DNA of 48,935 nt from Gammaproteobacteria bacterium. GTDB taxonomy: Bacteria; Pseudomonadota; Gammaproteobacteria; SZUA-152. The position numbers and the translations under genes are program-made. Every line of letters begins with the position of its first letter. Positions within the stretch are counted from its first letter, which is position 1. The stretch lies in NCBI GenBank assembly GCA_021647705.1, contig JAKIUF010000034.1, positions 1-48,935 of the forward strand, written 5' to 3'. A model generated the notes under the pieces. It did not search any database and had not been told where the DNA came from. It saw only the letters and a program-made list of their open reading frames with translations. This document shows positions 12,604 through 16,369 of the stretch, piece after piece.

Positions 12604-13578
12604 TCAGTTGGCAAAATCCTTGCTCAAAATAAAATTAATGCTGTTCGATGACCAGTTGACTTCATTGAGTCTGGCCACACCTATGCGGCCATCAGAAAAG
12701 AAAACCCTACTAATACCGGAGTCGGTACTCCAGGACTGCACAACAATACTCACGCCCCATGTCCAGTACACACGAGAAGATACGCTCTGCCAACCCAGCT
12801 CCAACACCTGCCCCCAACCATCGGCTCTGTGCTCAAAACTCACCGGATGGGCAAAGTCGCTACGCAGATTCCAGTTGGCCTGGGCAGAGTAACGCACCCG
12901 ATGAACCTCCAGACGGACAAATGCCGTACCGCCAGCCCGCAAATCCAGAAAAATATCCGCCCCCAGCCAGGGGCCATACCATTTTGCATCATAAGTTGAA
13001 TTAAGCCCGGCAAAGGGGCCCAAAGGCACCACTCCTACAGCACCTGGACTGATAATTTGTAAATTTGCCAGATTAGACAATTGCTGATTACCGTTGCGCA
13101 TACGCAAATCCTGGTGGTGCCAGGAATAACCCGCGATAGGAACAATCTGCCATTGATCCGCTGCACCGGCAGAAAATATCATCCCCAGCCCGGCGGACAA
13201 ATCCAGCATCTTGCTACCATCCACACTGTTACTCGAACGGGAAAACTCCAGACTGCGGTTATCTCCGGCATAATCAGAATCCCGATTCCGCCCGTCCCAC
13301 ACCCAGCCGTAGCTTGCCTGGCCACGGAAATAAATGTTTGCATCATTACTGCCCGACAATTCGCCCCGAAGCTGTGAAATATCCATGTCTTTCCACTCCA
13401 GCTCGGAAAGAATATTGGGGCCAGCACCCTCGACACGAATATTCCAGTCCAGTGAATCCACACGATACCCGAGGCTCAATGATCCACTCGTCTGTTTGGC
13501 TGCTGCCAATATCGTACCCGAAAGAAGTCCCAACAATACAAACAGGAAAACATGACGCGCATACACCAAAAAGTTCAC
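12604..13578 (-). CDS. Outer-membrane beta-barrel protein, omptin-like fold suspected
   Basis: The 324-residue protein starts with GTG (13578) overlapping the djlA stop by one base. A signal peptide (VFLFVLLGLLSGTILAAA) is followed by LSLGYRVDSLDWNI and PNILSELEWKDMDISQL, then alternating amphipathic strands rich in Trp, Tyr, Gly and ending in an aromatic-containing strand. The opening blocks resemble omptin-like barrels annotated as Protochlamydia-type outer membrane proteins. Omptin catalytic Asp/His residues cannot be assigned safely, so protease activity is not claimed. Translational coupling to djlA suggests envelope-related co-expression. Confidence 0.65.
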   Translation of the reverse strand: MNFLVYARHVFLFVLLGLLSGTILAAAKQTSGSLSLGYRVDSLDWNIRVEGAGPNILSELEWKDMDISQLRGELSGSNDANIYFRGQASYGWVWDGRNRDSDYAGDNRSLEFSRSSNSVDGSKMLDLSAGLGMIFSAGAADQWQIVPIAGYSWHHQDLRMRNGNQQLSNLANLQIISPGAVGVVPLGPFAGLNSTYDAKWYGPWLGADIFLDLRAGGTAFVRLEVHRVRYSAQANWNLRSDFAHPVSFEHRADGWGQVLELGWQSVSSRVYWTWGVSIVVQSWSTDSGISRVFFSDGRIGVARLNEVNWSSNSINFILSKDFAN

Positions 13579-14375
13579 TATTTAGTCCCTCGTGCTTCGC
13601 GTATCCGTTCATAGGCAGCACGAATTTCGTGAGTTTTTTCTTCTGCCAGTTTCATCATTTCTTCCGGCAGCCCTTTGGCCACCAGTTTGTCCGGGTGATG
13701 CTGATTAGTTAGTTTGCGATAGGCACGTTTTACTTCGGCATCGCTGGACTCACTGGTCACATTGAGAATCGCGTAAGCATCATCCAGCGAAACCTGCTCA
13801 ACTCTGCCACCTTTTGCCGCGTGTTGCTCGGCGCGCACCATGGCCTCCAGGCGATCAAAATCAGCGGCTGAAAACCCCAGCGCATCACAAATAATCAGCA
13901 GCAGTTTTTTTTCGGCAGGATTCAACTCACCATCCGCATAAGCGGCATGCAGTTGAATTTCGATGAACATTTGTTGCAGATTACGTGCGCGTCGTGTCGC
14001 GTTATGAAAACGCGTCAGCATATCCTCCAGAACAAAATCACTTTCTTTGCCTTTGGAAAAAAGTGTGATGGCTTCGTGACGCGCCTGCTCAGACAACCCC
14101 ATACGTGCCATAACATGCCGCGCCAGGGCAATCTCTTCTTCAGAGACCCGTCCATCGGCCTTGGCCAGATGTCCCATCACGGAAAAGGTGGCTTCAAAAA
14201 AAGCGCGTTGAATCTCTCCATGGCTGAGACCACCCAGACCTGCGGAGAAATTACCACTGAAATTCGCCAGCCCGCGATCAAACTGATGCCCCAATAAGGC
14301 TCCGACAAGTCCTCCGAAGAGGCCACCCATCATATAACCCAACACACCACCAATTAATTTACCCCAGAAATTCAA
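13578..14375 (-). CDS. djlA: Co-chaperone DjlA
   Basis: The 265-residue protein has the three-part DjlA structure. A glycine-rich membrane segment at the N-terminus (GGVLGYMMGGLFGGLVGALL) is followed by a TerB-like helical domain (about 45-170) with FSVMGHLAKADGRVSEEEI and AYADGELNPAEKKLL. The C-terminal J domain (about 200-265) carries the HPD tripeptide in NQHHPDKLVAKG. DjlA recruits DnaK at the inner membrane in stress and capsule signalling in E. coli. It shares its stop with the start of the barrel gene downstream. Confidence 0.95.
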   Translation of the reverse strand: MNFWGKLIGGVLGYMMGGLFGGLVGALLGHQFDRGLANFSGNFSAGLGGLSHGEIQRAFFEATFSVMGHLAKADGRVSEEEIALARHVMARMGLSEQARHEAITLFSKGKESDFVLEDMLTRFHNATRRARNLQQMFIEIQLHAAYADGELNPAEKKLLLIICDALGFSAADFDRLEAMVRAEQHAAKGGRVEQVSLDDAYAILNVTSESSDAEVKRAYRKLTNQHHPDKLVAKGLPEEMMKLAEEKTHEIRAAYERIREARGTK

Positions 14376-14566: not shown

Positions 14567-14591
14567 AAACGGGGTGCAAAGCACCCCGTTT
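14567..14591 (-). terminator. Hairpin terminator after the small peptide gene
   Basis: The perfect stem AAACGGGGTGC / GCACCCCGTTT encloses AAA. It begins 13 bases after the stop codon of the 27-codon minus-strand frame at 14604-14687 and ends in a short T-run on that strand, so it probably ends that transcript; the A-rich side could also terminate plus-strand transcripts. Confidence 0.6.
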
Positions 14592-14603
14592 AAAAAACCG
14601 TCT

Positions 14604-14687
14604 TTAGATGCTGGCGGCATCAATCATAAAACCCACCATGACAACAATAGCCAGTATGTTCGCAAACAACGTTGCTTTAAGCTCCAT
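14604..14687 (-). CDS. 27-residue single-span membrane peptide
   Basis: The frame encodes MELKAT, then the hydrophobic span LFANILAIVVMVGFM, and ends IDAASI. An unusually strong AGGGGG ribosome site lies about eight bases before the ATG, and a perfect GC-rich hairpin follows 13 bases after the stop, so this short frame has the signals of its own transcription unit. A possible sigma-70 promoter lies at 14795-14822. It resembles other bacterial membrane micropeptides in build only; I recognise no named family and infer no function. It is convergent with nothing and lies between djlA and argA. Confidence 0.55.
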   Translation of the reverse strand: MELKATLFANILAIVVMVGFMIDAASI

Positions 14688-14794
14688 AATAATTCCCCCT
14701 CCGAAAAGTTTGATGGTAAACGCATCTAATTTCCCGATCGTTAACACCGAAACCAGACAGAAATTAATGCGAGGCCAAACCTTAGCAAATTACC

Positions 14795-14822
14795 CAGATA
14801 TTTATCAAGGCAATTTAGTCAA
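14795..14822 (-). promoter_or_regulatory. Possible sigma-70 promoter for the small peptide
   Basis: On the minus strand TTGACT and TATCTG are separated by 16 bases, giving a leader of roughly 100 bases before the peptide start. The -10 match is poor, so this is tentative. Confidence 0.3.
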
Positions 14823-15013
14823 GTATTGACCCTGTATTTTATACGCCTAATATTCACATGGATTACCCGGCCAGCCAGCAAAATATCCTTTGCTGCCATA
14901 AAGATAAGCGTGGGTTACAATGCTGAACAGTAACTTTACAGCGGCAAACCTCAATGGACAGAAAACACCGCCGCTAAAAATAATCGACCAAATATGTTTC
15001 AGGAGTGTCCCTG

Positions 15014-16369
15014 GTGACTGCATCCAATAAAAAATCAGCCGCCCACAAACCACACAGCGACAAACATTTTGTGTCGTGGTTTCGCGATGCCGCACCCTAC
15101 ATCAACGCCTTTCGCGGGCGTACCTTTGTGGTGGTGTTTGGTGGAGAGGCGGTGCAGGACAAAAATTTCTCCGGGCTGATCCATGATTTCGCCCTGCTCA
15201 ACAGTCTGGGCATTCGTCTGGTGCTGGTACATGGCAGTTATCCGCAAATAGAGGCTCGTCTCAAGGCACAGACAAACAAGACCGCCTTTCACCAGGGTTT
15301 GCGCATCACCGACGACACTGCGCTGGCCTGTGTGAAAGAGGCTGTGGGTACCGTGCGTGTGGAAATCGAAGCACTGCTTTCCATGGGACTGGCGCATTCT
15401 CCCATGGCCGGGGCGCATATTCGCGTGGCCTCGGGCAATGTGGTGACTGCGCGTCCACTGGGCGTGCATGATGGTGTGGATTACCTGCACACCGGCGAGG
15501 TACGGCGTATCGATGCCGAAGCCATTCATCATCAGCTCGACCAAAATGCTGTGGTGCTGCTCTCACCACTGGGGTACTCACCCACCGGTGAAGTATTTAA
15601 TCTCAATGCCGAAGATGTGGCCACCTCGGCGGCCATCGCCCTGCATGCCCACAAAGTGATTTATCTGGCTGAGGGGCCTGGATTGCAGGATGCGCGCAAA
15701 CGCCTGACCCGCGAACTCACCTTCAGCGCAGCACAGCAACTGCTCGACTCACGACGGCGTTTGCCCGACAACATACGGCGCATTTTGAGCAGCGCGGTAA
15801 ACCTGTGCCTCAATGGCATTCCGCGCGTGCATATTCTCAACCGGCAAATTGATGGTGCCCTGTTGCAGGAGTTGTTCACCCGCGATGGCGTGGGTACGTT
15901 AATCAGTGCCGATGCTTACGAAGGCACCCGTCAAGCGAGCATTGATGATGTGGGTGGCATTCTGGAATTAATCAGCCCGCTGGAACAGGCCGATGTACTG
16001 GTGCGCCGTTCACGCGAACGCATCGAAATGGAAATCGACCGTTTCACCATCGTCGAGCGTGATGGCATGGTCATCGCCTGCGTTGCACTCAACCCGTTTA
16101 GCGAAAACAAAATGGCCGAGCTGACCTGTCTTGCGGTACACCCGGACTATCGGGGTGCAGTACGCGGCAACACCCTGCTGCAATTCATCGAGCAAAATGC
16201 CATGCAACAGGGCATTCAGCAATTGTTTGTGTTATCCACCAAAACCTCGCACTGGTTTCTGGAACGCGGCTTCAAAAAGGCAGACATCAAAATCCTGCCC
16301 ATGAAACGGCGGGCATTGTACAACTACCGGCGTAATTCAAAAGTGTTTATCAAAACGTTAACCGAGTAG
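15014..16369 (+). CDS. argA: Amino-acid N-acetyltransferase (N-acetylglutamate synthase)
   Basis: The 451-residue enzyme makes N-acetylglutamate from glutamate and acetyl-CoA, the first step of arginine synthesis. Residues 30-290 form the amino-acid-kinase-like domain that normally binds arginine (TFVVVFGGEAVQD, LVLVHGSYPQIEARL, VVLLSPLGYSPTGEVFNLN). The C-terminal GNAT domain has ELTCLAVHPDYRG and the FLERGFKKADI block; the acetyl-CoA loop reads RGAVRGNTLL. The GTG at 15014 is preferred because AGGAG ends eight bases upstream; a GTG at 15005 overlaps that ribosome site. About 250 bases with a GC-rich hairpin (16471-16484) follow before the CLC gene. Confidence 0.94.
   Translation: MTASNKKSAAHKPHSDKHFVSWFRDAAPYINAFRGRTFVVVFGGEAVQDKNFSGLIHDFALLNSLGIRLVLVHGSYPQIEARLKAQTNKTAFHQGLRITDDTALACVKEAVGTVRVEIEALLSMGLAHSPMAGAHIRVASGNVVTARPLGVHDGVDYLHTGEVRRIDAEAIHHQLDQNAVVLLSPLGYSPTGEVFNLNAEDVATSAAIALHAHKVIYLAEGPGLQDARKRLTRELTFSAAQQLLDSRRRLPDNIRRILSSAVNLCLNGIPRVHILNRQIDGALLQELFTRDGVGTLISADAYEGTRQASIDDVGGILELISPLEQADVLVRRSRERIEMEIDRFTIVERDGMVIACVALNPFSENKMAELTCLAVHPDYRGAVRGNTLLQFIEQNAMQQGIQQLFVLSTKTSHWFLERGFKKADIKILPMKRRALYNYRRNSKVFIKTLTE

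Follow-up and report, generated by a model that had tools for sequence, protein, structure and literature searches.

A conserved 27-codon gene divergent from argA encodes a predicted single-pass membrane peptide in Gammaproteobacteria

Results

A small gene with its own signals opposite argA

The window, by which we mean the whole 48,935-nucleotide stretch of DNA analysed here, carries on its minus strand a frame of 27 codons, MELKATLFANILAIVVMVGFMIDAASI (14604..14687), that reads from an ATG at 14687 to a stop codon at 14606-14604 and encodes a peptide with one hydrophobic span. An initial annotation made from the letters alone had placed such a frame between djlA and argA, and this is what the minus strand holds at 14687-14604. 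On the plus strand, divergent from the micropeptide gene, lies argA (15005..16369), which encodes N-acetylglutamate synthase and matches the NCBIfam models PRK05279 and TIGR01890 above cut-off. The next gene on the peptide's own strand, in the window's family, is djlA (13578..14375, minus; NCBIfam PRK09430, co-chaperone DjlA, above cut-off). Directly after djlA, a 324-residue frame (12604-13578, minus) belongs to Pfam PF17251 (Pom, Protochlamydia outer membrane protein; E 3e-58, above cut-off) and has no NCBIfam match at E<=1e-5. At the other end of the locus, the ArgA proteins of other families mostly begin to match that of the window at query residues 7-24 (window 15005-15060), so the genus may have an N-terminal extension of ArgA.

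Seven nucleotides before the micropeptide's ATG stands the Shine-Dalgarno sequence GGAGGGGG (14695..14702, minus), which pairs with the anti-Shine-Dalgarno at -11.2 kcal/mol. Ten of the 1915 ATGs of the window, this one included, reach that energy, which bears out the initial description of the site as unusually strong, and a G-rich ribosome site lies 5' of the ATG in 12/12 carriers of the window's family.

Farther upstream, comparison with relatives points to a promoter at 14776..14809 (minus), composed of TTGATA (14808-14803), 18 nt and TG-C-TAAGGT (14784-14779). Within this block 29-34 of 34 aligned bases are identical among the eight carriers of the genus, in all of which it stands 84-91 nt before the ATG; against G010 or G011 the window's block is 29/34 (85%) identical, whereas the coding DNA is only 68-69% identical. 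A matrix built from the genus carriers locates the two elements, equally spaced, 80-104 nt upstream of the start codon in G263, G338, G123, G358 and G150, so that it passes in 5/12 other genomes (P<=0.023 against shuffles) and fails in 7/12.

Twelve nucleotides after the stop codon, an 11-pair stem with a short U run (14567..14591, minus) forms a hairpin that is a likely terminator. It folds at -19.1 kcal/mol (z -4.63; 0/200 shuffles as stable), and the stem is kept in 8/8 genus carriers, where 98.9% of the 88 cells are paired. Evidence of covariation is weak: a single pair has changed on both sides, a count that 327/500 shuffles also reach, and the test says little here because the stem hardly varies. 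The hairpin follows the stop by 12-22 nt in seven genus carriers and stands about 50 nt further in G011, and the T run after the stem has four T in four of the seven other genus carriers and five in the remaining three (G005, G010, G011). A crude pattern search over 600 nt recovered the hairpin in 8/8 genus carriers against 0/8 genomes of the family without the frame, so that a terminator kept where the frame is lost, which would have spoken against the gene, was not seen. A crude scan behind the frame in four carriers of other genera found no terminator-like hairpin.

Both flanking signals had been proposed initially, and both come through with a qualification. Simple scans of the window called neither a promoter nor a terminator at the micropeptide, where the U run after the stem is UUUU only; the two elements therefore rest on folding and comparison, that is, on an alignment block (14809-14776) kept in 8/8 genus carriers and on a stable hairpin conserved in the same eight.

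The whole transcript predicted from these signals, about 205-206 nt, gives only a weak folding signal (z -1.77; 6/200 shuffles as stable). In its predicted fold the start codon and some of the ribosome site are base-paired, so that some translational masking of the micropeptide may occur. Alignment of the intergenic region brings out a second conserved block at 14880..14923 (plus), within which lies the likely argA promoter (CTGCCA, 17 nt, TACAAT at 14893-14921). It is identical at 38-43 of 44 bases in six genus relatives, though the micropeptide frame drops to 69% in the most distant of them, and at 29/44 in G010. Across 20 intergenic regions no arginine-repressor box between peptide and argA rose clearly above shuffles (the lowest P values being 0.05 and 0.08), and Rfam matched nothing in the window at gathering thresholds.

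The minus-strand frame is kept by selection

Conservation of the peptide in relatives, with a bias towards synonymous change, had been suggested as the check on this gene. The frame is indeed kept, with pairwise pN/pS from 0 to 0.42 within the genus. When the observed substitutions were scattered at random over the window's frame, amino-acid changes proved fewer than under random placement in six of the seven window comparisons at P<=0.043 and in five of them at P<=0.006 (G002, none of 5000 trials; G005, 0.001; G011, 0.004; G010, 0.005; G003, 0.006; G007, 0.043; G004, 0.51). Third codon positions vary most, in 22/27 columns as against 13 for first and 10 for second positions, and start, stop and length hold even where DNA identity is down to 58%. 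In family f128 (families are given throughout as tool labels), which carries the gene in two copies, pN/pS is 0.42 for copy A (8/9 copies, leaving out that of G263, whose start is unclear) and 0.37 for copy B (9/9). Synonymous bias and a constant start, stop and length together indicate a frame maintained by selection.

Which strand is being maintained? A plus-strand frame of 73 codons (14608-14829) overlaps the micropeptide and shares its wobble positions, so the codon-bias test cannot tell the strands apart. This frame is stop-free over 81 bases in 7/8 genus genomes, and in four distant comparisons its identity is 0.77, 0.58, 0.65 and 0.65, as against 0.85, 0.67, 0.63 and 0.63 for the peptide, so that in two of the four it slightly exceeds the peptide. 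It has, however, no common start, stop or length, its open stretches running from 19 to 97 residues in 19 genomes, and the ribosome site, the promoter and the profile matches all belong to the minus frame. The constant start, stop and length thus mark the minus strand as the coding one, and we regard it as next to impossible that the plus-strand frame is the real gene.

The gene recurs beside argA in six families

When proteins were searched in 57 genomes, among them that of the window, the peptide turned up in 8/12 genomes of the genus, 63-100% identical across all 27 residues; the only other matches had E 0.7 and 1.2. Weak matches from this search (L010, L011) and from a profile search (L076-L079) were left out for E-values of 0.18-1.2. 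True argA was present in 22/24 genomes of the family (G001 gave no match and G008 only an argB-like one, E 3.6e-32), and G006 and G015 were set aside because their loci meet contig ends. The frame stands opposite argA in 12 of the 20 readable genomes: eight of the genus, and G012, G014, G016 and G018, which belong to three other genera and whose peptides are 22-33% identical to that of the window. All 12 copies start with ATG and have exactly 27 codons. The eight family genomes without the frame, G009 and all seven of the sister genus g3, have no profile match anywhere.

Profile searches carried the family further. A first profile of 11 distinct sequences, run over 369 genomes of the class, gave two weak matches outside the family (E 0.0015 and 0.0054), both of them 26-residue frames divergent from argA, and the next profile added two more carriers, again divergent from argA. 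argA itself is found at E<=1e-80 in 243/369 class genomes. Its upstream regions were surveyed in 140 cases, taken from the best matches listed among those 243 genomes and not a random draw; three are shortened by contig ends (G059, G229, G115). Further carriers came to light in f37 and f128. A scan of the 140 regions for micro-frames gave matches on the divergent strand in 12 regions versus three on argA's strand; among the 12, G339, G289 and G240 look like noise and five (f22 and f144) hold other frames. Those of f22 (G044, G191 and G298; L108, L110 and L113) are 36-37-residue single-span frames, MKSATKGDMLIPAYLFGMVSFLYMVGMSLAHFPAGH and variants, which are divergent from argA, have a good ribosome site and are not matched by the profile. 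Those of f144 (G278 and G373; L224 and L230), also divergent from argA, are 33-residue single-span frames, MSDKHPQAREIIFTGLFLLGCIIATVLLMIKHA and a variant, which the profile matches just weakly and in part (E 4.9 and 13).

Over 166 upstream regions (the 140 surveyed, 22 from the family and four known to match), a 19-sequence profile found 24 places at E<=1e-4, spread over 20 genomes; every one lies opposite argA, and argA's own strand gave none. Most were already in the profile, and the new ones are second copies in G263 and G324. Genome-wide searches, which did not require argA nearby, agree. Profile A4 gave 15 places in 11 of the 369 class genomes at E<=1.1e-5, 15/15 beside argA, and six weaker places at about chance level (E 0.0026-0.0097) inside frames of 187-473 residues. 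Carriers make up 9/11 genomes of the order of G263, each with two tandem copies, 5/20 of the order of G324 and 1/3 of the order of G059; in the first two orders (31 genomes), 24/24 places in 14 carriers adjoin argA (G150, G263, G324 and G358 are counted in both the class set and the order sets). Matches L089-L095 and L280-L284 were left uncounted as partial or lying in frames of 187-613 residues, the exception being the 17-residue frame L092, and none has argA beside it. Viral contigs yielded five pattern matches, none confirmed, and plasmid records no match to the locus.

In total the gene is found in 30 genomes as 40 copies, across six families of the class (12 genomes in f1, nine in f128, five in f71, two in f101 and one each in f34 and f37). 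The relatives that bear names, Gammaproteobacteria bacterium S013_42, a Chromatiales bacterium and HyVt-444, are metagenome assemblies. The distribution is patchy, with 11/369 class genomes carrying the peptide, and the recurrence of relatives divergent from argA in several distant bacterial groups argues that they are kept by selection. All 40 copies adjoin argA, on the opposite strand. The other flank changes: the peptide is followed by djlA in f1 and f34, by a MoeA-like gene in f101 (MoeA is its best NCBIfam model, though below cut-off), by Ppnp in G324 of f71 (Pfam above cut-off, NCBIfam below), with ttcA beyond, and by convergent ttcA in f128, where G358, G150 and G263 were examined. The initial placing between djlA and argA thus holds in f1 and f34, but the neighbour constant across families is argA, not djlA.

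All nine f128 carriers have two tandem paralogues, a copy A of 27 residues and a copy B of 36 with an MYxxIKKP-type start in 8/9. A hairpin and T run, judged by eye, follow copy B in 9/9. G324 also has two copies.

A predicted membrane helix without a named family

By hydropathy alone, each of the 38 distinct cores has one hydrophobic span (17-residue hydropathy at least 2.14), in a protein of fewer than 50 residues. Glu occupies position 2 in 36/38 (it is missing from copy A of G263), and small residues occur at positions 6, 10, 13 and 17 in 37, 38, 32 and 25 of the 38 cores. Tested on 37 sequences (copy A of G263 left out), the helical periodicity of this small-residue stripe gives P=0.04 at helical angles chosen after the data were seen and P=0.14 when the angle may vary; nor do conserved positions gather on a single face of the helix (P=0.86). 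The hydrophobic span, Glu 2 and the small residues suggest a helix built for close packing in the membrane, and the sequence predicts a single-pass membrane peptide, its translation, membrane insertion and orientation being predictions of the same kind.

The peptide of the window and two others matched no Pfam or NCBIfam family at E<=5, and among 18 members none of the Pfam, NCBIfam or PHROGs families drew more than a single one (best single-match E 0.0024 in Pfam and 0.015 in NCBIfam). Among PDB sequences the profile found one chance match, to residues 7-25 of a nitrite reductase (E 3.1), and a search with one member found none. A possible likeness of one member to the Escherichia coli oxidase helix CydH/YnhF was dropped, as neither profile nor member found such a chain at E<=10 in PDB sequences. 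In the literature, nothing among the matches listed concerned the peptide or an argA-linked small protein, and argA is absent from the main text of PMC10903887.

Discussion

We consider it close to certain that this free-standing micropeptide gene is real. The initial claim of a gene missed by the usual length limits finds its support in a frame that is conserved in relatives and changes there mostly at synonymous sites. What does so small a product do? The family is new, and small single-pass membrane proteins are an already known kind. One of them, KdpF, is an accessory helix: a single short helix set against a larger membrane protein. AcrZ (PMC7267776) works in this way too, which is also the one that we propose for the micropeptide. 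CydX, a cytochrome bd oxidase subunit of 37 residues, few of them highly conserved, has been traced by locus over many species, with 80 unannotated among over 300 genes (PMC4325964). The micropeptide is likewise small, has few conserved residues and was traced by its locus (compare PMC4325964), but CydX is encoded in the operon of its partner, whereas the micropeptide gene lies opposite in strand to its constant neighbour. The E. coli proteins YohP (27 residues) and YkgR (33 residues) are small inner-membrane proteins, too short for cotranslational targeting, and fall in the micropeptide's size class; they differ in being described as induced in stationary phase, not as argA neighbours (PMC10502375). 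Because CydX and AcrZ, both accessory helices, and the stress-linked YohP are of like build, we favour an accessory helix for the micropeptide.

On balance, then, our analysis favours a gene that is neither a leader nor a by-product, and whose peptide probably acts as an accessory helix with a membrane partner. Transcription would start near 14772 and end at the hairpin, giving an RNA of ~205 nt, both ends being placed from the sequence. A near-perfect ribosome site would then direct synthesis of the 27-residue peptide, which would cross the inner membrane once. There the small residues at positions 6, 10, 13 and 17 could pack against another membrane helix, whether from the peptide itself, its paralogue or some larger membrane protein, and the packed helix might tune or stabilise that partner. 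The peptide gene and argA have the intergenic region in common; the peptide would be made under conditions tied to argA, and we read the linkage as shared regulation or a shared need.

The same linkage could be taken more literally, with a peptide specific to arginine metabolism that serves as a membrane tether or sensor for ArgA or for an arginine/glutamate transporter. That argA keeps its place beside every copy in six families while the other flank changes speaks for this; yet ArgA is a soluble enzyme, argA occurs in 243/369 class genomes and the peptide in just 11/369, no repressor box stands out, and divergent genes may have a common regulatory region without a common pathway. We consider this reading unlikely, and hold as rather doubtful the related idea that the peptide, which some lineages have as a 27/36-residue pair, is a membrane regulator with both its partner and its expression linked to argA, and so ties arginine synthesis to the membrane. 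To our knowledge, control of N-acetylglutamate synthase by a membrane peptide has not been described. It is also improbable that the peptide is a type I hydrophobic toxin, one that damages membranes and is held in check by an antisense RNA. Its size and hydrophobicity, the tandem copies in f128 and G324, and a transcript fold that engages the start codon along with part of the ribosome site in pairing, as in translation-blocked toxin mRNAs (weakly, at z -1.77), would fit such a toxin. A mobile or multi-locus distribution is, however, common though not strictly defining for type I toxins, and here all counted copies occupy one chromosomal place, beside argA, with no confirmed relative in viral contigs.

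Two further readings shift the function from the peptide to its transcript. A small regulatory RNA, to which the frame is secondary, would agree with a small transcript that appears to have its own promoter and hairpin, and with the conserved upstream block. The absence of any Rfam match in the window at gathering thresholds, the modest whole-transcript fold, the excess of variation at third codon positions and the retention of length, start and stop down to 58% DNA identity make this quite improbable. Alternatively, translation of a leader peptide could control read-through of the hairpin into a downstream gene, as the order of peptide, hairpin and djlA on one strand of the window would allow. 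An attenuator would be expected to keep the same gene downstream on the same strand, but the next gene varies from djlA (f1, f34) to the MoeA-like gene, Ppnp or convergent ttcA, and the peptide of the window contains neither an arginine codon nor a run of a single residue. With argA constant and the next gene changing, it is very improbable that the peptide serves as the leader of one downstream gene. The accessory helix remains the reading we favour.

This locus shows clearly that a conserved gene can be too short for the size limit of annotation, and its promoter, ribosome site and hairpin can each be tested. With the profile, the family can be sought in gammaproteobacteria that are culturable and genetically tractable, and the strict linkage to argA, a feature worth following, offers a first handle on function.
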